A DNA stretch of 64,000 nt from positions 1 through 64,000 of the forward strand of contig JAIVFH010000008.1 of NCBI GenBank assembly GCA_025765595.1. The letters are read 5' to 3'. The translations under genes were made by a program, and so were the position numbers. A model generated the notes under the pieces. That model ran no database searches and was not told the origin of the DNA. It saw only the letters and a program-made list of their open reading frames with translations. Below are positions 5,876 through 63,996 of the stretch, piece by piece. Every line of letters begins with the position of its first letter. Position 1 is the stretch's first letter. Origin of the DNA: Obelidium mucronatum. Lineage: Eukaryota > Chytridiomycota > Chytridiomycetes > Chytridiales > Chytriomycetaceae.

Positions 5876-6660
5876 AACATGGTTGATTGCGATGCAATCC
5901 CATTCATTCGGCTTGTTTCAACTTATATTGGAATGAAGCAGCGCCAGGCCACTTTGAGTGAGTGGGACAGGAGTTGTCAGTCCTTTTTTGGAGGGGGCCT
6001 GATCCTACTTGTGGATCTATGGAATGAAATCAAACCGGACCTACAAAGAGAAGGACTTCAGTTTCGTTGAGAGCATCTCCTGTGGACGCTATACTTCCTC
6101 AAAGCATATGAGGTGGAGGCTCGGGCTTGTGTGCAACATGCAAAACCTTTTGCAATGGGTGCGAGTAGGATGGACTCTGATTTCCAATCTTGCTAAGCGT
6201 GTGGTGAGTTGCACAGTTTATTCTCTGTTGGTTTAGGTTTGCTGATGTGTAAATGCCTAGATCGACGTGGAGGAGAGATTTGAAAATTGGAACGAAACAA
6301 TGCCATCTATGTACACAGACGGAATTCATTGCTGTGTTCAAGAGCCAAATCCACGAGACACGTCGTTATGGAGTCATAAATTGAACTCGGCAGGATACGC
6401 ATATGAGCTGGTGTCTTTTTTTCGGCCTGCAAACAATGGAAATGTCATTGGCTATGTGGGCGGTGGCTGCCCTGCTGGAAAATACAATGATATCACAATT
6501 GCCTGATCCTGCCTGCTTCCTCTTCTACAAGATAATGAGCGAGTGGCTGCCGATAAAGGCTGCGGTGATGCTGAAAATACCTTCATGACCCCCATCAAGA
6601 ATAATCAAGTCAATCCAGCGGTAGTACTCCACAACAGGGTTCTTGGTGTGATGGCTAATT
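5876..6660 (+). pseudogene. Decayed DDE transposase (Harbinger / DDE_Tnp_4-like)
   Basis: The best block, from about 6,310, has YTDGIHCCVQEP (first acidic residue after a hydrophobic strand), WSHKLNSAGYAYEL, then GGCPAGKYNDITI. The last matches the fungal DDE pattern G-x-C-G-x-x-N-D-x-T. The frame is stopped by TGA at 6,504-6,506 but continues in the same frame with DNERVAADKGCGDAENTF, the expected third acidic block. Upstream, 5,880-6,203 lies in two frames and joins through a plausible 57-nt intron (GTGAGT at 6,204, AG at 6,260). The in-frame stop and frame changes mark a dead copy. No terminal repeats or target duplication were found, so element ends are unknown. Confidence 0.65.
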
Positions 6661-39543: not shown

Positions 39544-41813
39544 TGAATGGAATAGCAATATTTTCTTGTGATCGCGCTGGGAAACCAAAACCCAAGCATT
39601 CAGTGGATCCAACCAAATACCGACAATCAAAAAGCAAAAAAATTGATTGCCATTTTAAGCTAACTGCAAGTCAGACAGCAGGGAAACAGTGGGGATTTAC
39701 TGAGCCAGCAAAGAAACAATTTCAGGAGATGTGGGGCAGTCACTGGAAGGGACACAATCACAACCCCGAAGTGGATAATAAATGGGTTGCTAGGTTTGGG
39801 GCCAGAAGAGGGATCGACAGTGAAGACTTGCCTTTTGTGACTGCTTTGGCGAAGGAGGGAATGGAAGTAGTGAAAATTCGAGAAGCTGCCATGGCATTGG
39901 GAAAAAGTCGTGCTCTTGAACGTGGAGAAACTTTTGCAGGAGTAGCCCCTTACAAGGACTTCGCCAATGCTGTGCTGAAGATCCGTCAGGAATTCTCCAT
40001 TGCAACACACCAACTCGCAAAACCAACTGAAGCTATTGACTACCTCTCCAACCAAAACAATCGCGCGGTATTATTTAGAACCAAGCACGACAGTGAAATG
40101 CGATTAGTTGGGCTCTTCTGGTGTTATGCTGACGAAATGAAAAATTTTCAACTGTACGGAGATGTTGCTGTCCAAGATATAACAGCCAATGCCATTCACG
40201 GAATGTCATCCTCCAGCATTATCGGAGTGAACTCTGAGTTCGAGACCATTCCATTCGCCCATGCCGCCCTTTCGTTTCAAGACACCCCCTCCCATGTATG
40301 GCAATGGACCACTTTTCTGGAGTTTTTTGGAAAGTTACCAACTGTTCTGATTACCGATGAAGATCTGGCTGTTTGTGCTGCTATGGAAAATCCCAGTTTC
40401 TCAAACACGACACATATCATCTGTTTGTATCACCTGGCTATGCAGAATATTCCGAAAAATCTTCGATCTAAACTGGGTCATAGTTTCGATGAATTCTTTG
40501 CAATGTGGTGGAAAGGCCAGCGGTGCATCACAGAGGCGTCATTTGAAAAGTGCTGGAACCAATGTGTTTCAATTGTTACAGCGGCAGCAATATCCGAAGA
40601 TACAAAAACAAAAGCCATGAATTACCTGGATCGTCTGTATTCATCTCGTTCGAAATGGGCTCGGCCGTGGACGGCAAAGATTTTCACACTTGGCATGCAA
40701 GCCAGCGGTCGTGTCGAAAAGTATCAGGATTTAATCAAAAGAGGAAGAGTTGGATCTCTCCTGCATCACATAAAACAAGTGGAATTAGTTGCGAAATCAA
40801 TGGACGAAAAGCAGGATTTTATCGAGAGCCAGGCTGCAACACGACTTCCAAACAAACAATCACAAATAATGTTTCGTACATTCAATACTGTTTTGGAACA
40901 AATTGAAAAGTATTGCAGTGTTTGGTACAAGTCTACCATTCAAGAGAAAATAGTCCTATCTTTCACAATGGAAGCCACCCAGATCTCTCAAGACGAAATT
41001 AATCTACAAATTGAAGAGTTCGAAGATGAAAAAGAGCCTGACGTCTTCAATCCTGGTGAAAGGCTTCCCTCAGACATTCGAAGCACACACCTGAAGCTTA
41101 TTTCACTCAAGGATCTACTTGAAAATCTACAAATTGGGATTCGGGATGTTTATGAAGTGAAGTCCCGAATTGGATACACAAGTCACAGACAATATGTGGC
41201 TCTTCTGGAAAATGGTTCTCATTTATGTACGGATTTGCTCCTTTGCCGTGCCGGTATCATTTGTGAACACTTTTGGGCTGTGCAGCTGAAGGCACAAGGA
41301 ACAAGCCCTTTATTTCATGTCGACTTGATTCCACGACGGTTTTGGAAAGAAGAACATCAATCTGCCACGCTTGAGTCTAATTGGATCGGAGTTGCTCGGC
41401 AGGAGGCTTTTGCTTGGATCCCTCCACCACCTATTCATCAAGGACTTGGCACAGCAGCGGTACAAGCGAGCCTATCTGCTACCACATTGAAGCTGCCACC
41501 TTCCACGGCAAATGAAACAAGTCAAAAAATGAGCTATGCAAATTACATGGCATATTGTCAAAAACGGTATGAAATTGGGCTTCTTCAAAACAATCTGGAT
41601 TCGACATTCGTAGCCAGTGAAGTAAGGTCGGAGGACATTCGTGAGCCTCCCGCTGTTCGAGGAAAAGGGCGACCCAAAAAAAACCGGATTCCTAATGCGT
41701 GTGAGCCTCAAAAGGGAAAGAAGCGGAAGGCCAATGAGACTGCCTTGGTATCATCATCACCTCGTCAAAACATGACAAAACAGAATGATAAAAAGGCAAA
41801 AAAGTGTTTGTGA
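39540..41813 (+). CDS. MULE transposase
   Basis: 757 codons, or the C-terminal part of a fusion (see the preceding entry). The N-terminus has a FAR1/FLYWCH-like basic region (SCDRAGKPKPKHS ... KKIDCHFKLTA). The catalytic core shows YGDVAVQDITANAIHG, VLITDEDLAVCAAM with Asp, and the following THIICLYHLAMQNI helix, typical of MULE transposases. Near the C-terminus is a SWIM-type zinc motif (CTDLLLCRAGIICEHFWAV: Cys, Cys, Cys and His). After that come an AT hook (RGKGRPKKNR) and a lysine-rich tail. It catalyses cut-and-paste transposition through binding the inverted repeats. The frame has no defects. Confidence 0.85.
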   Translation: MMNGIAIFSCDRAGKPKPKHSVDPTKYRQSKSKKIDCHFKLTASQTAGKQWGFTEPAKKQFQEMWGSHWKGHNHNPEVDNKWVARFGARRGIDSEDLPFVTALAKEGMEVVKIREAAMALGKSRALERGETFAGVAPYKDFANAVLKIRQEFSIATHQLAKPTEAIDYLSNQNNRAVLFRTKHDSEMRLVGLFWCYADEMKNFQLYGDVAVQDITANAIHGMSSSSIIGVNSEFETIPFAHAALSFQDTPSHVWQWTTFLEFFGKLPTVLITDEDLAVCAAMENPSFSNTTHIICLYHLAMQNIPKNLRSKLGHSFDEFFAMWWKGQRCITEASFEKCWNQCVSIVTAAAISEDTKTKAMNYLDRLYSSRSKWARPWTAKIFTLGMQASGRVEKYQDLIKRGRVGSLLHHIKQVELVAKSMDEKQDFIESQAATRLPNKQSQIMFRTFNTVLEQIEKYCSVWYKSTIQEKIVLSFTMEATQISQDEINLQIEEFEDEKEPDVFNPGERLPSDIRSTHLKLISLKDLLENLQIGIRDVYEVKSRIGYTSHRQYVALLENGSHLCTDLLLCRAGIICEHFWAVQLKAQGTSPLFHVDLIPRRFWKEEHQSATLESNWIGVARQEAFAWIPPPPIHQGLGTAAVQASLSATTLKLPPSTANETSQKMSYANYMAYCQKRYEIGLLQNNLDSTFVASEVRSEDIREPPAVRGKGRPKKNRIPNACEPQKGKKRKANETALVSSSPRQNMTKQNDKKAKKCL

Positions 41814-47037: not shown

Positions 47038-47199
47038 GGGGGAAACATTCACTTCAACCAAATTCTTCCATGGGAACGAGACATTGCGTTTGATCGCAAC
47101 TCATGGTCTATCATTCAGATTGAGAAAGTTGTGTCGATTTACGAGTTGTTTGGTGATGAATTGAAGGCGATGCTGTCAAAGAGCTGGTGCCATTCTTGA
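47038..47199 (+). pseudogene. Terminal exon of an unidentified gene (best preserved copy)
   Basis: After a good acceptor (TTTTTTCAG) the frame reads GGNIHFNQILPWERDIAF, then SIIQIEKVVSIYELF and stops at 47,199. The same exon recurs, shortened and with a TGG-to-TAA change, in every unit of the array to the right. The G-x-I ... PW-x-R-D-I pattern recalls LicD/fukutin-type proteins (PWD-x-D-x-D), but this is weak. The upstream exons are not found here, possibly because of the retrotransposon insertion, so I treat it as a remnant. Confidence 0.4.
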
Positions 47200-47944
47200 C
47201 TAGATAAGATCGTTGTGTACAAACGGAATAGTTCAAGTGATCTCCGGGGGTGAAGTAGTTTGGTCATTGCAAACTGCCGGCTCCAATGGCGCTTTTTGTG
47301 TGGACCCTAATAATGGCCAAGTGGCGCTGTACGTCCTCGAAAACGAAATAATTTGGGACTCGACCACAGAAATGTATGGCGCTGGCTATCCCAAATATCT
47401 AGGGCAAACAACAACTGTCAAGAGCTCTACTGCTACGTCTACGGTTCTAGGAACCACACAACCAAGTCCTTCCCCGTCTCCTTCACCGTCTCCGTCTCCG
47501 TCTGCTATCTCAGAATTTAATACCCAAGCTCCACCAGAGCCTAGCGGGTTGGGTGTTGGCGCAATCGCGGGTATATGTGTTGGAGCTGTTGCTGTTGTTG
47601 CCTTTGCTGCGTTCTTGCTTTTCCGTCGCCGAGCTCAGGAACCAAAACATCCCAATGAACAACTCCAGCCCCCCAGCGCCTTCATTCAGACTGTACATGT
47701 ACAATCATCATCCAGCGGTCCACCCCCTTCATCATCTGAAGCTATTGGGGTGGCATTCCCCACTACTCCGGAATTTTTCAAGGCAAACGTCAGTTATTCC
47801 GCCCAATACGAAGGGGAGCTCACAGTAGAGATAGGAGACCGTGTTGAAGTGATTCAAAAGAGGGACGATGGGTGGTGCCGTGGACGGGTTGGAAGTGGTG
47901 CGTTTAGTTGGATCCATATTTCGAAATTGGATCTGGTCGGATAG
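47200..47944 (+). pseudogene. Lectin-TM-SH3 gene copy 0 (5'-truncated)
   Basis: Diverged member of the array family. It keeps the second half of the bulb-type lectin domain (GGEVVWSLQTAGSNGAFCVD, LYVLENEIIWD), a Ser-Pro stalk (SPSPSPSPSPSP), a membrane helix (IAGICVGAVAVVAFAAFLLF) and a C-terminal SH3 domain (VSYSAQYEGELTVEIGDRVE, DDGWCRGRVG). The signal peptide, first exon and half of the lectin are missing. Sequence jumps from the exon remnant directly to the middle of the lectin, so an internal deletion of about 400 bp is likely. Unlike copies 1-4 it retains the linker before the stalk and stays in frame into SH3, so the 47-bp deletion arose after this copy split off. Confidence 0.65.
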
Positions 47945-48050: not shown

Positions 48051-48557
48051 ATGGGTGATTCTGCTATCCAACCAAATTTCTCCGCTTCCGGATTTCCGCT
48101 CTGCCCGCAAAAAAAAAAATTCAAATCGTTGCCTTTAAAGAAAGACCAAAGCTGCATCTTGCATTTACACAAACAGGTTTATATTAATTTATCCCTATTT
48201 CCCCATCATTCCAATGTCTACCCACTTTACGTCGGAATTGAGGGGCCGAGATCGGATCCAGACGTCTCAGGGAAGAAGGTGGTAATTACCATTGGGTGTC
48301 TAATGTGGCTTGATTTAATCATTGCATTCGCAACCGGAACGGATATATTCCACTTGAAATACGTACCAATCCCACGGAGCGGTATTGGTATCTACACTAA
48401 ATGGTCAGGGGCGACTGGGAGAAGGTATGGCACGAATCGAGGCACTAATAATTTGGATGTCTTTGAAGAGCTCCATTTTTTTGACTTCGTGCAAAAAAGA
48501 CAAAAGCTTTGCTGCTGGCTTTGCGGGACTCTTTTTTTTTCAGGGAGGAAAATTCTC
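48051..48557 (+). CDS. Conserved ORF of the array unit, copy 0 (interrupted by an insertion)
   Basis: Same frame as at 56,645-57,172 (MGDSAIQPNFSASGF). Native sequence ends at 48,557, where the 6.7-kb element begins; the frame then runs by chance into the element to 48,653. No family is recognised. See the copy at 56,645 for description. Confidence 0.35.
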
Positions 48558-48709
48558 CACACTGTTCTCACAAATGTGCTAACAATTTTTCCGGCAGTCA
48601 ATGTGCTGGAGGCAGCACACACACTCATTTTCGACCAAAAAAGGCAGTCATAGCACACAAGTACACTCAACCTGCCGCCACCACCGCCACTGTCACTGAA
48701 ACACCACCA

Positions 48710-51700
48710 ATGGGTCTTGAAGTTGCTACCACTACCGTTTCCAGAGCCTCAGTTGAAGTGTGGCTCGCAGCGACGCAAAAGGCCAACGGTCTGTTCTTCG
48801 AGAAACTCCAACAGTACCTGAAGGGCTGCACGCTGCCTCAGGACAAGTTCAATGCGCTGGTTCAAGCAATCTACTATACACAGAGCCAGTTTGTGAGTTC
48901 GTGTACCATTGCTATTGTGGTCTTTGTTTTTAATCACTCAACAGGTTGCCGACAAGTTTGGCGAATATGAGCATTTGAAACATATGCTTGGGCCGTTGTT
49001 CGCTCCTCCAAATGCTCTTGTTACGGACAAGCCAGTGCCAAATCCAACTTTGAATCTCGAGTGGTTTCCGCTTCAGCCGAGTGAATACACAGCGTGTTTC
49101 CGTGTCTATGTCCACGATCCCGCTTCTCTGTACGATTTGGTGCCGCTTTGTCTCTGTGGCTGTGGGAAATCTATTGGCACACAAGGGCTTGGCGATGTGA
49201 GGTGAGTTCCAACGTTCCTATTTTTGCTAACACCACTTCCATGCTGCTAACACCCGATCTATTATATTAGGCTCGTTCAAGATTGGGCCAACAAATACTA
49301 TTTGATGTCTCAACGCTATAAAATCGTTAGCAATCGTGGGAGCCGCTCAAGCTGTGTCAATTTCATCAAGAATTTGAAGAAGGGTGATGGTGACTGGATG
49401 ACCGAGCGTGCAAAAGACTTGGGAGTCGATGAAGACGATCTTCTACTGGATGAGGCGTCGGAAAACGGCAAGAAAGAAAAAGACAACGGTGGCAAGGATC
49501 AGGTCACGATAACTTACAGTGCTGCTAGCGCTGTGGGGCTTCGGCATCTTACTCCCAATCAACGTGATGGTATTTTTAATCCCAGTTTCACGTTGTACTT
49601 ACTTTCAATAGATCTTCCGTTTCGGCTCATTGGTGCTGCAACAGCCGTCGATGCTGATTTCTACAATGCTGTGTTGAAGCTCGGAAAGTCTGTTTCATTC
49701 AGAAGCATTGAGCTCAACTATCGCGGTAAGCGTATGTGCTATTTAAAAGAAAAAAAATGAATCAGTGTCCAAACAGAGCTTCAGGAAGAAGAGATGATGC
49801 GTAAAGTCGTAAAGCAAAGTGCTATTAGCGACGGAGTAGAAAAGGCACCGTACTTACTGGACTTGATGCCTGGAATGTATGTTCGTTGATTCATTTATTG
49901 CTGTCGAAATACTGCTAAAGCCACACGTTAATTAGTCCCAAGGGTTCCAAGTCGCCTTTTGTGGACTCTACACGTTTGATGTCAAGCAGCACCTTCTCTT
50001 TGATGTTTGTGAAAGATGCGATGCTCAAGGAAACAGTTCTCTTGGATTCAATCAAGACGGTGCTCTCAAAGCATATGATGCTGGATGAAACCTTCAGAAG
50101 TGCCAAAGCTTTGACAGTTAACGATCTTCAGACAGTATTTAATACAGTTTTTACAATCTGTGCGTCGGATGGCCGTATTGCGCAAATGTCCGTTCAAGGA
50201 AAAAAGTCATTTGAAGAATCCATTGCCGCTTTGCGTTTTGTTGACCGCCGCCACTTGGAAAACTTGGTCCAGATCCTCGATTTCTCCAGTGACAATGCTA
50301 CCTATGACTCTCTTGTTGCGCTTGGAATTGTTGCCAGCGATCCAGACCATGTATTGGACATCTGGCATAAGGTTATGAAAGTGGTTTCTGACCTGCCAAA
50401 GGACTCTATTATATATACTGAGGTGAAAAAAGAAGTCTTCAACGCGATTCTGCTTCCTAGGGACTCAAATGGTTTGTTCTATTCTTTGATTTTCATGTAA
50501 CTAAATTGATTTCGAAAGGGTTTCGAAAACTTCGAGATTTGGATGAGAGTGTAGAACTGCTCCAAGCCATTCTTACCAAAAACGAAACAGTCCCTTCTTT
50601 CAACGCAAACGCCCAGAAGGCACTAAAACAGCTCATTATCTATGCCAAAGAAGGGTGTGTGTTGTTATTAGAACGTTTTTTGAATGTCGCTTATTTGTTA
50701 TTAGGCGGTTTACTCGTTTGGAATCTGTTGAAATCACCGATTCCTTTGGGAATGTTGTTTCTGGACGTGCAGGGATCGAGAATTTGTTTCACCACCTGAA
50801 TGCATTACGGCGTGAGGGTCAAATGGGGCCACTGCTTTGGTATTGCTTGGTACTGCAATTTTCATCTTCGTGAGTTTGGTTTTTTGATTATTTGATGGGA
50901 TTGCCCTCATTACTTCATACTTTTTACAGCTGGAACTTGAATATATCAAGGAAACTATCGTCTCCACACCCAATCAAAAACGCTGGGTTCTCTACAAAGG
51001 TGGACCTGATAAACAAAGCCGTGGGATCCCGAGTCGGCAGCTCTTGTCCGTTATCCAAAGAAGAGCAAACAAATCTACACGCTCTGGATACAATTGTTCG
51101 AACCGATGAAGATTTTCTTTTCTACTCTGAAAGGAAGGTTCAGGAAAATCGAGTCTGGGCTGACCAATTCAAAGGTTTGCATTTATTTCAGTATAAGTTA
51201 CAGTCCCTCATTGACAGTTATCAGAATCTAGAGACACAGCATCATCAGCAACACTTACAAAAACCCCTCCAAGAGCGTCGCATCCGCTCCGCCGCGACAT
51301 CCCGTTAAAAGGGTGGGTTGTTACGCCAGTTTCCGACTCTTCCAAAAGAACACCGCCATCGAAACGGCAACTGCCTTCAGTCACATTGTCGGAATCCCCA
51401 TCCAAACGCCTTCATACCATGCCAAACAGTACATCCGTTGACACTGTTTCGAGCCACCTCCAATCAAGTCCAACCGTTTCCACAATATGCTCAATTGCTT
51501 CTGCTGCCTCGTCACTTCCTGGGAATGTGGTCAAGGCAATTAAGTCCAAGGGACAGGCCACGTTGAATTCATTTTTCTCCAAGGTTCCAGCGAAGAAGTC
51601 TGAAACTCAAGGAAAAAAGTGGCAAGCCAGTCATGTCCTTTTGAAACCCTCAAAGAATCTGAACACTGTCTTCCTCAATGATAAACAAGAGCAGAATACA

Positions 51701-52628
51701 GAGTCATTACACAAGCTCACTGCCTTTGAGCTCCATGTCTTTTGGCGGTTTCGTGTTTTTCATCAGCTTGACGCCAAGGATTTGGATAGCATCCAAAAAT
51801 TTGGAAACTTTTGGAACGACGTACTAACCGAGTATCCCCAAGACGTTGAGTATTCTCAGAAAAGCCGTGAATTGTATCGGATTCCTGTTGCCAAAGAGAG
51901 TGGTGGTGAGTATTTCTGATTTATTGTTCCATCATTCCTTGCTGATTCAAATTTCAGTTGTATCTCGGAAGGATCCTGCAATTTTTCGAAAATTGGCTGC
52001 TGCACTGGAGGATACGTGGAGCTCTAAGTTCTTACTGGAGCCCTCTGAGTTCCATTTTAACAATATAGCCTCAAAACGCAGGAAGATTGAGGCTTTCAAC
52101 ATTGCCATGACTCAAACGTCGGCAATTAAATTTGTACCAACAGCGGCAATGCGTGGCTTTATGGATTCAGCAACAAAAGGTTTGTTTACTCACCTCATTC
52201 ATTAACTGTTAAACCATGACAACAAAAATCAATCAGGAAAAGCTGAGGATGCGCCTATGCTTTCTATTGGAAGAAGTAGTGTGGCCGTCCCTTTCTCAGT
52301 TGCAACTGAAGCTCAAGTTTCGGAATCTGTCCCTGAAGAAATTCCAACCCTTACTCCAGTCCTGGTTTCAAAAAAAAGTCCTCGGGCACCACGACTGCCA
52401 AAAGGAAAGCATTCGGAGGCAGCCAGTTGCCATCGTTGCCATCTTCCAAAAAATGGATCTGGCCATCCAAAGGCACATTGCCGCGATGGTTTCCACAGTT
52501 TGTTTAAGACTGTTACATACTTTGCTGACGACGATGTCGTCAATCAACATAGTGGTCATACTTTTGTTCATCCCAATGGCAGTTCTGTTCCTTGTTTTAG
52601 TTCTAGTATTCGAAACAAATTTAAATAA
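48710..52628 (+). CDS. DDE-type transposase-like protein of the 6.7-kb element, 1,109 residues
   Basis: Twelve exons join in frame without a defect: 48,710-48,892; 48,945-49,201; 49,271-49,569; 49,612-49,725; 49,777-49,876; 49,936-50,471; 50,519-50,654; 50,705-50,869; 50,930-51,174; 51,225-51,905; 51,958-52,179; 52,237-52,628. An early Cys pair (CLCGCGKS) lies near residue 115. The core, in exon 6, reads KHMMLDETFRSAKAL, then TVFTICASDGRIAQM, then ILDFSSDNATYDSL and DHVLDIWHKVMKVV. That is the order found in fungal RNase H-fold transposases (first Asp in LDETF, second in SSDN, followed by a LDxWH helix). The third acidic residue is not identified with certainty (candidates in exon 9, near DTIVRTDEDF). 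The C-terminus has a zinc-knuckle-like CHRCHLPKNGSGHPKAHC. No named family is assigned. Start ATG 48,710 is the first in frame inside the element. Confidence 0.6.
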
Positions 52629-53412
52629 AGTAGAATATTCAATAGTAGACCTGGTAATCCTTCTTGTGGCAGGTGTTGTTCAAAAATGCCGAATCATTGG
52701 AGCTTCCAGTGAGTCCACGTTGATGCCATTCAACACAGTTACTAGAACACAAAGAAAGATAGCATTTGCGGTGGAGATTGTTTTATTTTCATCTGGTTGA
52801 CTGTGTTATTAGCCTCAGAAACCCAAAATAAAAAGTTGCTAACCACTCAAAATCGACACCTGAAACTTTCAGAAATCAATCAATAATATATTTCGATGAG
52901 TAGCTGAAAGTTTGAGAGTTCTAGCTTTAACTATTCTGTGTGAGGAGCGTGATGTTTGATATGCACAGTTGATCATGTCCATAAATATTGGTCCCAGAAC
53001 GCTAATACTGCGGCAGTCAACTCTTTTGATGGTATATAAATAACTGGTAAGATTTGTTTTAGCTGTGTTAATGTTGCCGTTGATTGGCTATCTTACTTCA
53101 ACAGTCAACCAACAAGACTCTCATCGAAGTATTGAGACAACTAAAGTGATAAAACAAAATGCCAGATCGTGATTATATATGTTATAATAAGTCATCAATG
53201 TAAGGATTGGACAATTATTATCACCGTCTCAAGCAGAACGTGGGAGAATAGTCTTCAAGTTGGGCTCAGTGCCCCTTTTGAGTGACTTACAATTGCAACC
53301 CAACAAGGCAACGGTCGGTATTGCAATATTATCAGTACGTTTCATCTGTTTGAGCGCGTAACTTAGCCGGAAACGGTTTTTTAGACAAGTATTCCCTGGG
53401 GTTTCGGATAAT
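52629..53412. other. Spacer between the two genes of the 6.7-kb element
   Basis: AT-rich, no gene seen. It presumably holds the transposase-like gene's terminator and the promoter of the recombinase gene. No repeat is recognised. Confidence 0.5.
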
Positions 53413-54945
53413 ATGAGACAAGGGATTTACAAAGGACAGCAGATTGCAAAAAACAAACAAAGGCCTATTTTTCTATCTCCCTGGCGGTTAATATTCGCTT
53501 TTGTTCTTCTGTTAGTCTTTTCGGTGGTTTCTTATCTGTTTCTGGAAGACGGTGGAAAGGAAAAAGAAAAAAAAAGATTCAAAAAAACAACATCCGCTCG
53601 CCAGCCACCCATCACCAATGAGCCACCCAAGGCCCCAATGGGAACCCATACGGGCCTCAAATCGCTTCCGCTTGTTCCGGTTTGTTTCATATTAAATTCT
53701 GTTTCACTCCCTCCTCCCGCAATAATTACGTTTCACTTGCCTTCCATAAAATTCATTCTTCCTCTTATCACACAGGGTGGCTCTCTTAAACGAGTGACTC
53801 TTGCTTCTCTGTTGAAGTCGCAATGGTCAATGTTGGCAGGTGCGGCGTGGAACTGTTTTTCGTTTTTCACTTCCCAATTACCAACACAATATTTCCACCC
53901 ACCCCCACTATCCGCTGCAGCGCCTCTCTAGAAAAGTTCCTTGCGTTACACGGCTGTGGCAGCGAAAGCCTCGAGTGCGGCGCTGCCCTGGTTCTCTATG
54001 TCCGCAAATCTGTTGAGAGCACAAGCCACTCTTGCCAACAGCAGCAGGACTTTGTCAAGGACTGGGCCGCATCGAAGGGATTCCACATCACTGCCGTGTT
54101 TGAGGAGGTCGAATCAGGCGCCAAGTCGGACCGGCTCCAGCTCGAGGCTGCCTTGAAACGTGTTTTGGGGGACTCTTCGATTTCCGGACTAGTCACTTAC
54201 AAGGTCGACCGGCTCTCTCGCGACGGCGGCTTCACCAAGGCGGTTCTTGCTCGGCTGAGCTCCGGCGGCAAGTTCTACATCTCGGCAGCGGAGCCTGATC
54301 TCTTCTTTGCTCCGGGTCAGTCTGAGGTTAGCATTTTTAGTATTTTACGTTCGGACATTGCTAAATCTGATTGATTCAAGGCAAACCCGCAATTGGCTCT
54401 CCTTCTGCGGTCAACCCTAGCTGAAGCCGAACGTATCAACATCTCCAAAACCACGGCCCATCATATGCTCATGAAGAAAAACGCTGGATGCCCCGTTAGC
54501 AACAAGTCTCCTTATGGGACCCAGTTCTGCGCTCGCTACAGCAACGGACGGACTATTCATGGGTATTTCCTCAACAGTTTCAGCAAAGACGGTCTCATTG
54601 AAGTATCCACAGTGCCTTGTCCCAAAGAGAGCTCGCTTGCTCTTGCTGCGCTTGCGTTCTCTTGGAATCGATTTTCCAGTAATCGACGTCTATCTCATAC
54701 GGAAATCTTCAATTACGTTGCTGCGTTGGGAATGGAGATGGAAACAAGGCCGTCTGCGAAACCAAGTGAGTTGTTCACTTTTTCTTTCGTAAATTGACGT
54801 TAATTCTTTGTTTTATTTAGGACCAATCAAACGTCAAGTCTACAACTTCTCTCGTAATGTCCAAAGCTACTTGAAGCAAGCCAAGGAGAAGCGGCTCTTG
54901 GATCAACTCGTGGAATCTCTTGGAGCACCTCATCATAGTCAATAG
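53413..54945 (+). CDS. Serine recombinase (resolvase-type) with N-terminal membrane anchor, 411 residues
   Basis: Exons 53,413-53,679; 53,776-53,839; 53,932-54,326; 54,381-54,765; 54,821-54,945 join in frame. A single hydrophobic segment lies at residues 26-44 (LIFAFVLLLVFSVVSYLFL). The catalytic domain starts near 128: ALVLYVRKS with the nucleophile Ser at about 137 and an Arg two before it, then a DWAASKGFH helix, SGAKSDRLQLEAAL, and GLVTYKVDRLSRD with the DRLSR active-site arginines at 203-207. The long helix that follows (LLRSTLAEAERINISKTT) and a downstream YGTQF element match resolvases that continue into a DNA-binding region; no large zinc ribbon or coiled coil is evident. Serine recombinases make 2-bp staggered double-strand exchanges via a covalent phosphoserine. 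The introns argue for a genuinely eukaryotic gene. A membrane anchor on such an enzyme is odd: exons 1-2 could be wrongly joined, or the anchor could place the protein at the nuclear envelope (inference). Confidence 0.75.
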
Positions 54946-55272
54946 ACGTTTTCTGGAATGTGGTTTGGGACGGTAGCGCAGGGGCTGGAAACGGAATTGG
55001 TCAGTGGCTGGAAAGTGGTTGTAGTTGCGAGGGTCTGGAGACTGGGATGGTGCGGGACGGATCGGGTGGTATGGTCGGGGAGGGGTCGGGGCTGGCCGGG
55101 AGGGTCTGGAAGGGGTCGTTTTCGGTGGGTATTATTTGGTCAATATATGATTTGATTTTGGTCGGGATTGAATAAAGGATCGGTTGGGGAATGGAAGGTT
55201 TTGACCAAATTTGACCAAAAAATCAATTTTGGTCGGGCCTGCGGCCAGCAGCACAAATTTGACCAAATTCGC
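54946..55272. promoter_or_regulatory. Right subterminal region of the 6.7-kb element
   Basis: A G-rich plus strand (repeated GGGxCGG, GGTCTGG) is followed by repeated (T)TTTGACCAAA and TTTTGGTCGGG motifs and a dyad GGGCCTGCGGCC at 55,235-55,250. Repeated short motifs near the element end are expected binding sites for a mobility enzyme. No coding sense. Confidence 0.5.
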
Positions 55273-55480
55273 AAATTCTCTCCAACCAAAGTCGCATTTA
55301 ATCACAACTCGTAATCCATCATTCAGATTGAAAAAGTTGTGTCGATTTACGAGTTGTTTGATGAAGAATTGAAGGCGATGCTGCCAAGGAGCTGGCGCCA
55401 TTCTAGATAAGGTCGTTGCGTTGCAATATGAGAGTTGATGCGTCTAGAAATTGAGATTAAAAACAACAAAAAAGGAAAAA

Positions 55481-56535
55481 ATGCTCATTGTGCTGATCCT
55501 TCTTATCGCCGCGAGTGGTTGGGCACAAACGACGAAGTTCTGTTCAGGGTATGGTTTACCTTCGGCATCGGGTCATTTTACAAAAAAAGATGCTTGTATT
55601 GGTCGAGGTGAAACTATTTCTGCCTGCAATGCATTGAGAACGGAGGGTGGAACTTACGAGCTCGCTATTCAGGTATTCCTCCTTTCTCTTACTCTTCTCG
55701 CCGCTAAATCCTTCTTCTGAATGTTCTATTGACTCTGTTTGGATGTAGAATGACGGAAACCTTGTTGTGTATGACGCAAATTTGAATGTCAAATGGACTT
55801 CCCACAGTAACGGTCGGGTATCTTCCGATACAAGGCTGCAATACAACACAAATGGGGTGATTGAAATGTTCTCTGAGGGCTATGTAGTTTGGTCATTGCG
55901 AACAGCCGGTTCCGATGGCCTTTTTTGTGTAAACACTGAAACTGGCAAAGTAACAATGTACAACAATGGGTGGTATGTGGGGAACTTCCCAATTTGGGAC
56001 TCGAACAACGGTCAAGATCTCTGCTACTACGATCCCACCAAGTCCTTCCCCGTCTCCTTCTCCGTCTCCTTCTCCGTCTCCTTCTCCGTCTGCTATCCCA
56101 GAATTAAAATCTCAGGCTCCACCAGAGCCGAGCGGGTTGGGTGTTGGCGCAATCGCGGGTATATGTGTTGGAGCTGTCGCTCTTGTTGCCTTTGCTGCAT
56201 TCTTGCTTTCCCGTCGCCGAGCTCAGGAACCAAAACAGCCCAATGAAGAACTCCAGCCCCCCAGCGCCTTCCTTCAGACTGTACATGTACAATCATCATC
56301 CAGCGGTGCACCCCCTTCATCACCTGAATCTATTGAGATGCCGGCGTTCCCCACTGCTCCGGAATATTTCCAGGCAAACGTCAGTTATTCCGCCCAATAC
56401 GACGGGGAGCTCACAGTAGAGATGGGAGACCGTGTTGAAGTGATTCAAAAGAGGGAAAATGGGTGGTGCCGTGGACGGGTTGGAAGTGGTGCGTTTAGTT
56501 GGATCCATAGTTCGAAATTGGATCTGGTCGGATAG
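55481..56535 (+). pseudogene. Lectin-TM-SH3 gene copy 1 (47-bp deletion before the stalk)
   Basis: Exon 1 55,481-55,672 encodes a signal peptide (LIVLILLIAASGWAQ) and a Cys-containing start. A 76-nt intron leads to exon 2 at 55,749 (NDGNLVVYDANLNVKW, GYVVWSLRTAGSDG), a bulb-type (GNA-like) lectin that binds mannose-type sugars in other lineages. Relative to copy 5, 47 bp are missing after IWDS, so the frame shifts to a Cys/Ser-rich tail and stops at 56,246, giving about 229 residues without membrane helix or SH3. The original frame with helix and SH3 is intact downstream (to 56,535, ending WIHSSKLDLVG). The gene may therefore make a short secreted lectin, or be inactive. Confidence 0.7.
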
Positions 56536-56644: not shown

Positions 56645-57172
56645 ATGGGTGATTCTGCTATCCAACCAAATTTCTCCGCTTCCGGATTTCCGCTCTGCCC
56701 GCAAAAAAAAAAATTCAAATCGTTGCCTTTAAAGAAAGACCAAAGCTGCATCTTGCATTTACACAAACAGGTTTATATTAATTTATCCCTATTTCCCCAT
56801 CATTCCAATGTCTACCCACTTTACGTCGGAATTGAGGGGCCGAGATCGGATCCAGACGTCTCAGGGAAGAAGGTGGTAATTACCATTGGGTGTCTAATGT
56901 GGCTTGATTTAATCATTGCATTCGCAACCGGAACGGATATATTCCACTTGAAATACGTACCAATCCCACGGAGCGGTATTGGTATCTACACTAAATGGTC
57001 AGGGGCGACTGGGAGAAGGTATGGCACGAATCGAGGCACTAATAATTTGGATGTCTTTGAAGAGCTCCATTTTTTTGACTTCGTGCAAAAAAGACAAAAG
57101 CTTTGCTGCTGGCTTTGCGGGACTCTTTTTTTTTCAGGGAGGAAAATTCTCTCCAACCAAAGTCGCATTTAA
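56645..57172 (+). CDS. Conserved ORF of the array unit (176 codons), first uninterrupted copy
   Basis: Starts MGDSAIQPNFSASGF and has a more hydrophobic middle (VVITIGCLMWLDLIIAFATG) and an RRYGTNRGTNN stretch. It overlaps the T-rich acceptor upstream of the next terminal exon remnant, so it may be noncoding leader or intron of that other gene rather than a protein. Its only support is that it is kept open in five near-identical copies, which is weak since the DNA is nearly identical. No family is recognised. Other copies: 48,051, 58,519, 60,393 and 62,232. Confidence 0.35.
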   Translation: MGDSAIQPNFSASGFPLCPQKKKFKSLPLKKDQSCILHLHKQVYINLSLFPHHSNVYPLYVGIEGPRSDPDVSGKKVVITIGCLMWLDLIIAFATGTDIFHLKYVPIPRSGIGIYTKWSGATGRRYGTNRGTNNLDVFEELHFFDFVQKRQKLCCWLCGTLFFSGRKILSNQSRI

Positions 57173-57277
57173 TCACAACTCGTAATCCATCATTCAGATT
57201 GAAAAAGTTGTGTCGATTTACGAGTTGTTTGATGAAGAATTGAAGGCGATGCTGCCAAGGAGCTGGCGCCATTCTAG
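57138..57277 (+). pseudogene. Remnant terminal exon of the unidentified upstream gene, repeated in each unit
   Basis: After TTTTTTTTTCAG the sequence GGAGGAAAATTCTCTCC leads to SIIQIEKVVSIYELF and ends at TAG (57,275-57,277). Compared with 47,038-47,199 it lacks about 30 bp and has TAA in place of the TGG before SIIQ, so the exon cannot be read through. Further copies: 59,012-59,151, 60,886-61,025, 62,725-62,864. In the first unit the exon is split by the 6.7-kb element (left piece at 48,544-48,557, right piece 55,273-55,406). The change is shared by all, so it preceded amplification. Confidence 0.5.
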
Positions 57278-57351
57278 ATAAGGTCGTTGCGTTGCAATAT
57301 GAGAGTTGATGCGTCTAGAAATTGAGATTAAAAACAACAAAAAAGGAAAAA

Positions 57352-58409
57352 ATGCTCATTGTGCTGATCCTTCTTATCGCCGCGAGTGGTTGGGCACAAA
57401 CGACGAAGTTCTGTTCAGGGTATGGTTTACCTTCGGCATCGGGTCATTTTACAAAAAAAGATGCTTGTATTGGTCGAGGTGAAACTATTTCTGCCTGCAA
57501 TGCATTGAGAACGGAGGGTGGAACTTACGAGCTCGCTATTCAGGTATTCCTCCTTTCTCTTACTCTTCTCGCCGCTAAATCCTTCTTCTGAATGTTCTAT
57601 TGACTCTGTTTGGATGTAGAATGACGGAAACCTTGTTGTGTATGACGCAAATTTGAATGTCAAATGGACTTCCCACAGTAACGGTCGGGTATCTTCCGAT
57701 ACAAGGCTGCAATACAACACAAATGGGGTGATTGAAATGTTCTCTGAGGGCTATGTAGTTTGGTCATTGCGAACAGCCGGTTCCGATGGCCTTTTTTGTG
57801 TAAACACTGAAACTGGCAAAGTAACAATGTACAACAATGGGTGGTATGTGGGGAACTTCCCAATTTGGGACTCGAACAACGGTCAAGATCTCTGCTACTA
57901 CGATCCCACCAAGTCCTTCCCCGTCTCCTTCTCCGTCTCCTTCTCCGTCTCCTTCTCCGTCTGCTATCCCAGAATTAAAATCTCAGGCTCCACCAGAGCC
58001 GAGCGGGTTGGGTGTTGGCGCAATCGCGGGTATATGTGTTGGAGCTGTCGCTCTTGTTGCCTTTGCTGCATTCTTGCTTTCCCGTCGCCGAGCTCAGGAA
58101 CCAAAACAGCCCAATGAAGAACTCCAGCCCCCCAGCGCCTTCCTTCAGACTGTACATGTACAATCATCATCCAGCGGTGCACCCCCTTCATCACCTGAAT
58201 CTATTGAGATGCCGGCGTTCCCCACTGCTCCGGAATATTTCCAGGCAAACGTCAGTTATTCCGCCCAATACGACGGGGAGCTCACAGTAGAGATGGGAGA
58301 CCGTGTTGAAGTGATTCAAAAGAGGGAAAATGGGTGGTGCCGTGGACGCGTTGGAGATGGAGCGGTGGTTGGTTGGATCCATATTTCGAAATTGGATCTG
58401 GTCGGATAG
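57352..58409 (+). pseudogene. Lectin-TM-SH3 gene copy 2 (47-bp deletion)
   Basis: Same structure as copy 1: exon 1 57,352-57,543, exon 2 from 57,620, deletion-shifted frame stopping at 58,117, helix and SH3 in the old frame to 58,409. The SH3 end differs from copy 1: after RGRVG it reads DGAVVGWIHISKLDLVG instead of SGAFSWIHSSKLDLVG, a local replacement of about 25 bp. Confidence 0.7.
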
Positions 58410-58518: not shown

Positions 58519-59046
58519 ATGGGTGATTCTGCTATCCAACCAAATTTCTCCGCTTCCGGATTTCCGCTCTGCCCGCAAAAAAAAAAATTCAAATCGTTGC
58601 CTTTAAAGAAAGACCAAAGCTGCATCTTGCATTTACACAAACAGGTTTATATTAATTTATCCCTATTTCCCCATCATTCCAATGTCTACCCACTTTACGT
58701 CGGAATTGAGGGGCCGAGATCGGATCCAGACGTCTCAGGGAAGAAGGTGGTAATTACCATTGGGTGTCTAATGTGGCTTGATTTAATCATTGCATTCGCA
58801 ACCGGAACGGATATATTCCACTTGAAATACGTACCAATCCCACGGAGCGGTATTGGTATCTACACTAAATGGTCAGGGGCGACTGGGAGAAGGTATGGCA
58901 CGAATCGAGGCACTAATAATTTGGATGTCTTTGAAGAGCTCCATTTTTTTGACTTCGTGCAAAAAAGACAAAAGCTTTGCTGCTGGCTTTGCGGGACTCT
59001 TTTTTTTTCAGGGAGGAAAATTCTCTCCAACCAAAGTCGCATTTAA
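58519..59046 (+). CDS. Conserved ORF of the array unit, copy 2
   Basis: Identical in reading to 56,645-57,172; same caveats. Confidence 0.3.
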   Translation: MGDSAIQPNFSASGFPLCPQKKKFKSLPLKKDQSCILHLHKQVYINLSLFPHHSNVYPLYVGIEGPRSDPDVSGKKVVITIGCLMWLDLIIAFATGTDIFHLKYVPIPRSGIGIYTKWSGATGRRYGTNRGTNNLDVFEELHFFDFVQKRQKLCCWLCGTLFFSGRKILSNQSRI

Positions 59047-59225
59047 TCACAACTCGTAATCCATCATTCAGATTGAAAAAGTTGTGTCGATTTACGAGTT
59101 GTTTGATGAAGAATTGAAGGCGATGCTGCCAAGGAGCTGGCGCCATTCTAGATAAGGTCGTTGCGTTGCAATATGAGAGTTGATGCGTCTAGAAATTGAG
59201 ATTAAAAACAACAAAAAAGGAAAAA

Positions 59226-60283
59226 ATGCTCATTGTGCTGATCCTTCTTATCGCCGCGAGTGGTTGGGCACAAACGACGAAGTTCTGTTCAGGGTATGGT
59301 TTACCTTCGGCATCGGGTCATTTTACAAAAAAAGATGCTTGTATTGGTCGAGGTGAAACTATTTCTGCCTGCAATGCATTGAGAACGGAGGGTGGAACTT
59401 ACGAGCTCGCTATTCAGGTATTCCTCCTTTCTCTTACTCTTCTCGCCGCTAAATCCTTCTTCTGAATGTTCTATTGACTCTGTTTGGATGTAGAATGACG
59501 GAAACCTTGTTGTGTATGACGCAAATTTGAATGTCAAATGGACTTCCCACAGTAACGGTCGGGTATCTTCCGATACAAGGCTGCAATACAACACAAATGG
59601 GGTGATTGAAATGTTCTCTGAGGGCTATGTAGTTTGGTCATTGCGAACAGCCGGTTCCGATGGCCTTTTTTGTGTAAACACTGAAACTGGCAAAGTAACA
59701 ATGTACAACAATGGGTGGTATGTGGGGAACTTCCCAATTTGGGACTCGAACAACGGTCAAGATCTCTGCTACTACGATCCCACCAAGTCCTTCCCCGTCT
59801 CCTTCTCCGTCTCCTTCTCCGTCTCCTTCTCCGTCTGCTATCCCAGAATTAAAATCTCAGGCTCCACCAGAGCCGAGCGGGTTGGGTGTTGGCGCAATCG
59901 CGGGTATATGTGTTGGAGCTGTCGCTCTTGTTGCCTTTGCTGCATTCTTGCTTTCCCGTCGCCGAGCTCAGGAACCAAAACAGCCCAATGAAGAACTCCA
60001 GCCCCCCAGCGCCTTCCTTCAGACTGTACATGTACAATCATCATCCAGCGGTGCACCCCCTTCATCACCTGAATCTATTGAGATGCCGGCGTTCCCCACT
60101 GCTCCGGAATATTTCCAGGCAAACGTCAGTTATTCCGCCCAATACGACGGGGAGCTCACAGTAGAGATGGGAGACCGTGTTGAAGTGATTCAAAAGAGGG
60201 AAAATGGGTGGTGCCGTGGACGCGTTGGAGATGGAGCGGTGGTTGGTTGGATCCATATTTCGAAATTGGATCTGGTCGGATAG
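59226..60283 (+). pseudogene. Lectin-TM-SH3 gene copy 3 (47-bp deletion)
   Basis: Exon 1 59,226-59,417 and exon 2 from 59,494. The frame stops at 59,991 after the shared 47-bp deletion; TM and SH3 remain open in the old frame to 60,283. SH3 end of the DGAVVGWIHIS type, as in copies 2 and 4. Confidence 0.7.
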
Positions 60284-60392: not shown

Positions 60393-60920
60393 ATGGGTGA
60401 TTCTGCTATCCAACCAAATTTCTCCGCTTCCGGATTTCCGCTCTGCCCGCAAAAAAAAAAATTCAAATCGTTGCCTTTAAAGAAAGACCAAAGCTGCATC
60501 TTGCATTTACACAAACAGGTTTATATTAATTTATCCCTATTTCCCCATCATTCCAATGTCTACCCACTTTACGTCGGAATTGAGGGGCCGAGATCGGATC
60601 CAGACGTCTCAGGGAAGAAGGTGGTAATTACCATTGGGTGTCTAATGTGGCTTGATTTAATCATTGCATTCGCAACCGGAACGGATATATTCCACTTGAA
60701 ATACGTACCAATCCCACGGAGCGGTATTGGTATCTACACTAAATGGTCAGGGGCGACTGGGAGAAGGTATGGCACGAATCGAGGCACTAATAATTTGGAT
60801 GTCTTTGAAGAGCTCCATTTTTTTGACTTCGTGCAAAAAAGACAAAAGCTTTGCTGCTGGCTTTGCGGGACTCTTTTTTTTTCAGGGAGGAAAATTCTCT
60901 CCAACCAAAGTCGCATTTAA
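60393..60920 (+). CDS. Conserved ORF of the array unit, copy 3
   Basis: Identical in reading to 56,645-57,172; same caveats. Confidence 0.3.
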   Translation: MGDSAIQPNFSASGFPLCPQKKKFKSLPLKKDQSCILHLHKQVYINLSLFPHHSNVYPLYVGIEGPRSDPDVSGKKVVITIGCLMWLDLIIAFATGTDIFHLKYVPIPRSGIGIYTKWSGATGRRYGTNRGTNNLDVFEELHFFDFVQKRQKLCCWLCGTLFFSGRKILSNQSRI

Positions 60921-61099
60921 TCACAACTCGTAATCCATCATTCAGATTGAAAAAGTTGTGTCGATTTACGAGTTGTTTGATGAAGAATTGAAGGCGATGC
61001 TGCCAAGGAGCTGGCGCCATTCTAGATAAGGTCGTTGCGTTGCAATATGAGAGTTGATGCGTCTAGAAATTGAGATTAAAAACAACAAAAAAGGAAAAA

Positions 61100-62122
61100 A
61101 TGCTCATTGTGCTGATCCTTCTTATCGCCGCGAGTGGTTGGGCACAAACGACGAAGTTCTGTTCAGGGTATGGTTTACCTTCGGCATCGGGTCATTTTAC
61201 AAAAAAAGATGCTTGTATTGGTCACGGAGGGTGGAACTTACGAGCTCGCTATTCAGGTATTCCTCCTTTCTCTTACTCTTCTCGCCGCTAAATCCTTCTT
61301 CTGAATGTTCTATTGACTCTGTTTGGATGTAGAATGACGGAAACCTTGTTGTGTATGACGCAAATTTGAATGTCAAATGGACTTCCCACAGTAACGGTCG
61401 GGTATCTTCCGATACAAGGCTGCAATACAACACAAATGGGGTGATTGAAATGTTCTCTGAGGGCTATGTAGTTTGGTCATTGCGAACAGCCGGTTCCGAT
61501 GGCCTTTTTTGTGTAAACACTGAAACTGGCAAAGTAACAATGTACAACAATGGGTGGTATGTGGGGAACTTCCCAATTTGGGACTCGAACAACGGTCAAG
61601 ATCTCTGCTACTACGATCCCACCAAGTCCTTCCCCGTCTCCTTCTCCGTCTCCTTCTCCGTCTCCTTCTCCGTCTGCTATCCCAGAATTAAAATCTCAGG
61701 CTCCACCAGAGCCGAGCGGGTTGGGTGTTGGCGCAATCGCGGGTATATGTGTTGGAGCTGTCGCTCTTGTTGCCTTTGCTGCATTCTTGCTTTCCCGTCG
61801 CCGAGCTCAGGAACCAAAACAGCCCAATGAAGAACTCCAGCCCCCCAGCGCCTTCCTTCAGACTGTACATGTACAATCATCATCCAGCGGTGCACCCCCT
61901 TCATCACCTGAATCTATTGAGATGCCGGCGTTCCCCACTGCTCCGGAATATTTCCAGGCAAACGTCAGTTATTCCGCCCAATACGACGGGGAGCTCACAG
62001 TAGAGATGGGAGACCGTGTTGAAGTGATTCAAAAGAGGGAAAATGGGTGGTGCCGTGGACGCGTTGGAGATGGAGCGGTGGTTGGTTGGATCCATATTTC
62101 GAAATTGGATCTGGTCGGATAG
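61100..62122 (+). pseudogene. Lectin-TM-SH3 gene copy 4 (35-bp and 47-bp deletions)
   Basis: Exon 1 (from 61,100) has lost 35 bp after ACIG, so the first exon runs out of frame (HGGWNLRARYSG) and no longer joins the lectin exon (from 61,333) in frame. It also carries the 47-bp deletion before the stalk (stop at 61,830). The SH3 end is of the DGAVVGWIHIS type (to 62,122). This is the most damaged copy and cannot make a normal product. Confidence 0.75.
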
Positions 62123-62231: not shown

Positions 62232-62759
62232 ATGGGTGATTCTGCTATCCAACCAAATTTCTCCGCTTCCGGATTTCCGCTCTGCCCGCAAAAAAAAAAA
62301 TTCAAATCGTTGCCTTTAAAGAAAGACCAAAGCTGCATCTTGCATTTACACAAACAGGTTTATATTAATTTATCCCTATTTCCCCATCATTCCAATGTCT
62401 ACCCACTTTACGTCGGAATTGAGGGGCCGAGATCGGATCCAGACGTCTCAGGGAAGAAGGTGGTAATTACCATTGGGTGTCTAATGTGGCTTGATTTAAT
62501 CATTGCATTCGCAACCGGAACGGATATATTCCACTTGAAATACGTACCAATCCCACGGAGCGGTATTGGTATCTACACTAAATGGTCAGGGGCGACTGGG
62601 AGAAGGTATGGCACGAATCGAGGCACTAATAATTTGGATGTCTTTGAAGAGCTCCATTTTTTTGACTTCGTGCAAAAAAGACAAAAGCTTTGCTGCTGGC
62701 TTTGCGGGACTCTTTTTTTTTCAGGGAGGAAAATTCTCTCCAACCAAAGTCGCATTTAA
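62232..62759 (+). CDS. Conserved ORF of the array unit, copy 4
   Basis: Identical in reading to 56,645-57,172; same caveats. Confidence 0.3.
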   Translation: MGDSAIQPNFSASGFPLCPQKKKFKSLPLKKDQSCILHLHKQVYINLSLFPHHSNVYPLYVGIEGPRSDPDVSGKKVVITIGCLMWLDLIIAFATGTDIFHLKYVPIPRSGIGIYTKWSGATGRRYGTNRGTNNLDVFEELHFFDFVQKRQKLCCWLCGTLFFSGRKILSNQSRI

Positions 62760-62938
62760 TCACAACTCGTAATCCATCATTCAGATTGAAAAAGTTGTGT
62801 CGATTTACGAGTTGTTTGATGAAGAATTGAAGGCGATGCTGCCAAGGAGCTGGCGCCATTCTAGATAAGGTCGTTGCGTTGCAATATGAGAGTTGATGCG
62901 TCTAGAAATTGAGATTAAAAACAACAAAAAAGGAAAAA

Positions 62939-63996
62939 ATGCTCATTGTGCTGATCCTTCTTATCGCCGCGAGTGGTTGGGCACAAACGACGAAGTTCTG
63001 TTCAGGGTATGGTTTACCTTCGGCATCGGGTCATTTTACAAAAAAAGATGCTTGTATTGGTCACGGAGGGTGGAACTTACGAGCTCGCTATTCAGGTATT
63101 CCTCCTTTCTCTTACTCTTCTCGCCGCTAAATCCTTCTTCTGAATGTTCTATTGACTCTGTTTGGATGTAGAATGACGGAAACCTTGTTGTGTATGACGC
63201 ATATTTGAATGTCAAATGGGCTTCCGACAGTAATAACGGTCGGGTATCTTCCGATACAAGGCTGCAATACAACACAAATGGGGTAATTGAAATGTTCCAT
63301 GAGGGCTATGTAGTTTGGTCATTGCGAACAGCCGGTTCCGATGGCCTTTTTTGTGTAAACACTGAAACTGGCAAAGTAACAATGTACAACAATGGGTGGT
63401 ATGTGGGGAACTTCCCAATTTGGGACTCGAGCTCAAAGTCGTATGGCGCTGGCTTTCCCCAATATCCAGGGCAAACAACAACGGTCAAGATCTCTGCTAC
63501 TACGATCCCACCAAGTCCTTCCCCGTCTCCTTCTCCGTCTCCTTCTCCGTCTGCTATCCCAGAATTAAAATCTCAGGCTCCACCAGAGCCGAGCGGGTTG
63601 GGTGTTGGCGCAATCGCGGGTATATGTGTTGGAGCTGTTGCTCTTGTTGCCTTTGCTGCATTCTTGCTTTCCCGTCGCCGAGCTCAGGAACCAAAACAGT
63701 CCAATGAACAACTCCAGCCTCCCAGCGCTTTCCTTCAGACTGTACATGTACAATCATCATCCAGCGGTGCACCCCCTTCATCACCTGAATCTATTGAGAT
63801 GCCGGCGTTCCCCACTGCTCCGGAATATTTCCAGGCAAACGTCAGTTATTCCGCCCAATACGACGGGGAGCTCACAGTAGAGATGGGAGACCGTGTTGAA
63901 GTGATTCAAAAGAGGGAAAATGGGTGGTGCCGTGGACGGGTTGGAAGTGGTGCGTTTAGTTGGATCCATAGTTCGAAATTGGATCTGGTCGGATAG
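62939..63996 (+). pseudogene. Lectin-TM-SH3 gene copy 5: full lectin-to-SH3 frame but damaged exon 1
   Basis: Exon 2 (63,172-63,996) is one open frame of 275 codons. It contains bulb-type lectin (NDGNLVVYDAYLNVKW, GYVVWSLRTAGSDG, WYVGNFPIWDSSSKSYGAGF), Thr/Ser-Pro stalk (IPPSPSPSPSP), membrane helix (IAGICVGAVALVAFAAFLL), LSRRRAQEP, Ser-rich spacer and SH3 (SYSAQYDGELTVEMGDRVEV, ENGWCRGRVGSGAFSW). It shows what the family protein should be: secreted lectin ectodomain, one helix, cytoplasmic SH3 that would bind Pro-rich partners. Exon 1 (62,939) has the same 35-bp deletion as copy 4, so the signal peptide does not join in frame. Confidence 0.75.

Follow-up and report, generated by a model that had tools for sequence, protein, structure and literature searches.

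We analysed a window of 64,000 nucleotides (contig JAIVFH010000008.1, positions 1 to 64,000 of the forward strand) from Obelidium mucronatum (Chytridiomycota; assembly GCA_025765595.1, 48.3 Mb). At 48558-55272 it contains a 6715-bp mobile element, bordered on both sides by the 8-bp sequence AAATTCTC, that carries a gene for a likely DDE transposase and a gene for a serine recombinase. This window copy is called C8, and its features are as follows.

48550..48557, + strand: left 8-bp target-site duplication AAATTCTC, from the repeat and the empty-site comparison.
48558..48580, + strand: left end, with the tip CACACTGTTC, unlike the right tip, followed by the subterminal inverted repeat at 48568-48580.
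48710..52628, + strand: transposase gene, 12 exons, 1109 aa, from a splicing model with GT-AG introns.
52629..53822, + strand: noncoding region between the genes, from block comparison of copies.
52865..52894, + strand: candidate site A, a 30-bp block, the best-scoring short block common to the C8, C61 and C82/C69 subfamilies.
53631..53656, + strand: site B, a candidate crossover site, the imperfect palindrome GGCCCCAATGGG-AA-CCCATACGGGCC (10/12 pairs).
53823..54945, + strand: serine recombinase gene, 4 exons, 310 aa, PF00239, from a P0003-guided model and Pfam.
55250..55262, - strand: right subterminal inverted repeat, positions 11-23 from the right tip.
55263..55272, - strand: right tip GCGAATTTGG (minus strand), the same in C40, C184, C155, C61 and C19.
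55273..55280, + strand: right 8-bp target-site duplication AAATTCTC, from the repeat and the empty-site comparison.

When the two flanks were joined over a single AAATTCTC (250 + 250 bp), the resulting sequence was 100% identical over 500 bp to four neighbouring array units (56902-57401, 58776-59275, 60650-61149 and 62489-62988), so the insertion was precise and is apparently recent. The initial annotation had described a 6.7-kb insertion with an 8-bp flanking repeat beside four uninterrupted units, and the empty-site comparison bears this out. The units between 56902 and 62988 are spaced by ~1.9 kb and are 100% identical across the compared 500 bp; a more diverged stretch of the array lies at 47086-47218 (85%).

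Whole-genome searches, from which all copy and locus counts given here are lower bounds, recovered further members of the family. Other copies with the same ends had been anticipated and were found: C40, C184 and C155 share the first and last bases of C8, each with an 8-bp duplication of its own (AAAATTTC, AAATAAAC and AAAAAAAC, respectively). With identical ends and a separate 8-bp repeat at each of these three further copies, the pattern is very unlikely to be due to chance or misassembly. Site-specific insertion, which the initial annotation had also raised, is not supported, as the four copies with clear duplications sit at four different A-rich places. Five copies in all keep both ends; the fifth, C82, is diverged, 7605 bp long and located between runs of nine A, which are compatible with an 8-bp duplication but cannot fix one. 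Its right tip is CGGAATTTGG. The subterminal inverted repeat is matched at 10 of its 13 positions in C8 and at 13/13 in C82, and when the terminal 23 positions of the left and right ends are compared, 13/23 agree in C8 and 16/23 in C82, with matches concentrated at positions 11-23. The element has its own ends, 8-bp duplications and several subfamilies (those compared are C8, C61 and C82/C69), which supports the earlier view of a mobile element carrying both genes.

The remaining copies differ in what they retain. C184 and C155 have three large internal gaps in common at two loci with different duplications; they are 94-100% identical in most blocks and only 49-72% in three blocks from the 3′ portion of the old transposase. 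These internally deleted relatives were probably non-autonomous and moved in trans. Over 6137 bp, C61 and C19 are 99.97% identical, and both have the same exact right tip. On its left side C61 (210120-217480) has CTAACCC telomere-type repeats ~60 bp ahead of the putative start of the transposase, and C19 (48803-54939) is cut short on the left inside the transposase gene; these differing left sides could reflect one-ended movement or breakage. C69 and C166 are decayed copies, and C42 retains a decayed stretch of transposase and no recombinase. Two solo left ends (C74:99542-99658 and C52:1294-1355, 88-89% identity) have unrelated sequence behind them, which in C74 includes a reading frame judged by eye to be P-loop-like. 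An Rfam scan of 48300-55600 gave no match.

A multi-exon transposase-like gene of 1,109 residues had been predicted at the outset, and the 12-exon model does splice with GT-AG introns. The predicted acidic residues D368, D437 and E567, together with D459-x2-H462, are invariant in four family members that are 31-89% identical; between subfamilies, transposase identity is 31-41%. These motifs and the 8-bp duplication suggest that the protein uses DDE chemistry. Protein searches that scored ~8000 candidates sharing most short words returned no transposase homologues outside Obelidium, and viral contigs contained no relatives. When a shorter transposase core was compared with Pfam, two chance-level matches were obtained.

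The second gene matches the serine-recombinase domain PF00239 (E 9.6e-16), in agreement with the catalytic signature noted initially. Its length of 411 aa had to be revised: the start at 53413 is not conserved (C40 has no ATG there), the deposited models P0003 and P0004 begin later than 53413, and the window model comprises 310 aa from 53823 (exons 53823-53839, 53921-54326, 54381-54765 and 54821-54945). The expected catalytic residues, read from the alignment, are Arg34, Ser36, Arg77, Asp102, Arg103 and Arg106 in P0003, which we take to be the counterparts of the gamma-delta positions. The C-terminal part matches no Pfam family. A protein search with the recombinase (~8000 candidates sharing most short words) returned only Obelidium proteins; relatives were found neither in viral contigs nor in phages, and peptide patterns from the recombinase had no match in prokaryote genomes. 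In plasmids, tblastn gave weak matches to bacterial serine recombinases in 57 records, with 30-37% identity among the 10 matches listed. The absence of relatives elsewhere is therefore weak evidence, because the protein search missed bacterial serine recombinases that tblastn picks up.

The recombinase domain is similar to the IS607 catalytic domain, and one could imagine that mobility depends on the serine recombinase, as in IS607, with the large protein as an accessory. However, the IS607 model is matched by the recombinase catalytic domain from position 55 of 187, its N-terminal part not being seen, and serine recombinases would not be expected to leave an 8-bp duplication. We regard this account as highly improbable.

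The two genes are consistently found together. Recombinase sequence is present at 9/10 transposase loci, the exception being C42, and transposase sequence at 9/9 recombinase loci; a genome-wide PF00239 profile search gave five matches, 5/5 inside this element family. For the transposase, dN/dS between C8 and C40 was 0.19 at a dS of 1.0 (1115 codons compared, using a C8 model of 1128 aa rather than 1109). For the recombinase, dN/dS between C8 and C61 was 0.17 at a dS of 1.5, which is near saturation. These values indicate that both genes are under purifying selection, and the distribution of loci indicates long-term pairing. Could the recombinase be passenger cargo that a DDE transposon acquired once? 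The recombinase is broken in C184 and C155, which sit at two loci and have different duplications, so that an intact one in cis seems unneeded. Yet recombinase sequence has been kept at all but one of the ten loci while the transposases have diverged to 31-41% identity between subfamilies, and its dN/dS of 0.17 also argues against a passenger. We think this explanation improbable.

We then compared the region between the genes. Blocks within 52793-53242 are 91-100% identical among four copies; most transposase blocks of C8 and C40 are 63-88% identical. For site A, E values were 2.7e-5 (C8-C82), 0.022 (C8-C69) and 0.064 (C61-C82), and in C8-C61 the site lies within a long 60% alignment. At the centre of site B, positions 53643-53644 read AA in C8 and C40 and TT in C184, C155 and C61, a difference that an inversion of the dinucleotide would produce.

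Searching the genome for the site-B pattern with ≤ 2 mismatches gave 41 places, compared with 0 for the reversed control. Six of these are in element copies (C8, C40, C184, C155, C19 and C61). Another six are in a different repeat, in which the 95 bp surrounding the site match the element at 80% identity. These repeats are on C655, C578, C165 (two), C157 and C125, are 91-99% identical pairwise over the parts held, and adjoin what by eye appears to be a P-loop (Crinkler-like) gene, with a short, weak left-end-like piece near. The remaining 29 places belong to one further repeat sequence. As a possible relative of the element it was set aside: the two examples examined are a GC-rich repeat, and the one compared gave no BLAST match to the element.

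The copies are evidently of mixed ancestry, with switches at or beside the candidate sites that precede the recombinase gene. Across C8, C40 and C184, the sharing pattern changes between 52895 and 52902 (support 52858-52929), beside site A, and again between 53616 and 53643 (support 53616-53688), overlapping site B. To the right of 53676, C8 and C40 are 97-100% identical, including introns and 3′ noncoding DNA, whereas just left of the switch they are 73-86% identical. The dS between the two copies is 1.0 for the transposase and 0.033 for the recombinase, a difference of ~30-fold. In a second subfamily, identity between C82 and C69 drops from ~97% to ~50% at 6023-6036, on the border of an inverted repeat (5989-6024) that is the strongest in its 1.8-kb region and whose 14-bp arm was reached in 0/60 mononucleotide shuffles. 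The deeper relationships are also discordant: the C8 transposase is 40.6% identical to that of C82 and 32.8% to that of C61, whereas the recombinase (that of C40 standing for C8) is 64.2% identical to C61 and 45.4% to C82, and the 95% bootstrap ranges of these affinities are of opposite sign. We propose that the recombinase produced the switches. A similar pattern is described in bacteria: in exchanged Tn3-family elements, homology breaks at the dinucleotide of res site I are attributed to resolvase in the portion of the source available to us (PMC7157771).

The mosaic could instead have arisen by ordinary homologous recombination or gene conversion within a conserved region, and would then be uninformative about the recombinase. 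Few parts of the copies are as similar to one another as this region, and crossovers would accordingly tend to occur there. For C82-C69, the break could simply be the end of the constrained region, as the DNA to its right is noncoding and hardly alignable. On the other hand, in each of two subfamilies the breaks fall at candidate sites and have narrow support intervals, and the near identity of C8 and C40 to the right of the switch extends through introns and 3′ noncoding sequence. We consider this explanation rather unlikely, if a serious one.

Bacterial replicative transposons are characterised by the formation of cointegrates that are then resolved. We propose that the element is a two-recombinase chytrid DNA transposon whose recombinase is predicted to resolve copy-and-paste intermediates as in bacterial Tn3, a reading drawn from sequence comparison that we give even prospects of being correct. 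At insertion, the likely DDE transposase would cut and join with an 8-bp stagger. The serine recombinase would cross over two element copies in the region just upstream of its own gene and, after replicative transposition, would resolve the two joined copies (cointegrates). Resolvase-like action is indirectly supported because the ancestry switches lie at or beside the candidate sites before the recombinase gene.

Several observations weigh against this proposal. We saw neither cointegrates nor circular forms nor transposition, and breaks in the conserved intergenic region could also come from ordinary homologous recombination. Homology of the transposase to any DDE family was not detected by Pfam, by a PDB profile search or by hhalign against MULE: a Pfam scan gave no family at E up to 10, and a profile search of PDB sequences gave no match at E up to 10. 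The structures predicted from two-row alignments had a pLDDT of 30.5 for the transposase and 38.7 for the recombinase. The C82 recombinase has Cys at the equivalent of Arg77, where the others have the conserved Arg that follows Asp. Site A is weak in some pairs (C8-C69 and C61-C82), and an A-rich stretch closer to the recombinase also matches weakly between subfamilies. Site B was chosen after the breakpoint had been seen; it reaches the threshold of 10/12 pairs in C8 and C184 but not in C40 or C61. A scan at 10/12 pairs found one equally good palindrome inside the C8 transposase coding region, and an inverted-repeat scan allowing ≤ 1 mismatch found none between the genes in C8, C40, C184, C155 or C61. 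A palindrome score with 28-bp arms was above shuffles in 0/7 copies and did not single out site B. The C82 palindrome has another sequence and spacing than site B. Sites A and B are ~740 bp apart, compared with 100-150 bp for the Tn3 res segment in the accessible text of the source (PMC7157771).

It is also conceivable that the element is a cut-and-paste DDE transposon in which the recombinase is integral but has another role: it might, for example, undo tandem or nested copies, invert a segment or govern expression from the intergenic region. Most known eukaryotic DDE elements that make 8-bp duplications move by cut-and-paste. The recombinase appears to be under purifying selection and always accompanies this transposase in this genome, and the extended stretch of conserved noncoding DNA may have a regulatory function. 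However, the switches between elements at or beside palindromes resemble exchange at Tn3 res sites, and one site B per element copy fits resolution between two copies. We judge such a role possible and on the unlikely side.

Returning to a recombinase that resolves cointegrates, the broader proposal is that this would be the first copy-and-paste DNA transposon in eukaryotes to encode a resolvase of its own, in which an unrelated transposase and a serine recombinase converged on the Tn3 lifestyle and a res-like region between the genes lets elements trade transposase and resolvase halves. We hold this more tentatively, at somewhat below even. If the recombinase works in this way, it would give direct access to the question of whether DNA transposons of eukaryotes can copy themselves without excision, would represent a serine recombinase that has natural target sites and is encoded by an intron-bearing gene, and would provide a case of transposons evolving through module swaps at a recombination site.

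How does the element compare with known systems? With the Tn3 family it shares a transposase of ~1000 aa together with a serine resolvase, and module exchange at a site beside the resolvase gene, as both are described in the available portion of the source (PMC7157771); here, the site is a candidate. The serine resolvase-type gene is within the element, as shown by the five PF00239 matches, but here both genes are eukaryotic and intron-bearing, and the 310-aa recombinase has an unrecognised C-terminal part. The Tn3 target duplication is 5 bp, whereas it is 8 bp in the four readable copies here and ambiguous in C82. In place of 38-40-bp terminal inverted repeats, we found asymmetric tips and a 13-bp subterminal repeat, and the Pfam and PDB searches identified no TnpA-type DDE transposase.

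An 8-bp duplication is shared with KDZ, MULE and hAT elements: the excerpted sources give 8 bp for Zisupton (KDZ; PMC12730594), usually 8 bp for hAT and 8-10 bp for MULE (PMC12730594, PMC5225508). In contrast to these, our element has no long terminal inverted repeats and does have a serine recombinase. The KDZ domain PF18758 matches 16 places in the genome, 0 of them at element loci, and was not found in the transposase protein scan; PF10551 (MULE transposase) matches 6 places, 0 at element loci. One PF10551 match in the window (40212-40442, within a 757-aa open frame) marks a likely second transposon. An hhalign comparison of the transposase with local MULE transposases gave a probability of 0.1, from a thin alignment in which 2/6 frames were short, and the Pfam scan detected no hAT domain. 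IS607-like elements of bacteria and eukaryotes have a serine recombinase catalytic domain in common with ours. They differ in their N-terminal DNA-binding part, which is not seen here, in TnpB/Fanzor, for which Pfam scans of the element's two proteins gave no domain, and in having no target duplication, according to the accessible text (PMC6188088).

The initial annotation had suggested an undescribed eukaryotic element type. This stands in so far as open-access literature searches aimed at the pairing gave, in titles and abstract beginnings, no eukaryotic DDE element that encodes a serine recombinase; the DDE half of the description is one that we infer. Because one or more of the defining features tested for each were absent here, we do not assign the element to Tn3, KDZ, MULE, hAT or IS607. 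It is best read as a new eukaryotic element type that would be Tn3-like in its working without being a member of Tn3.

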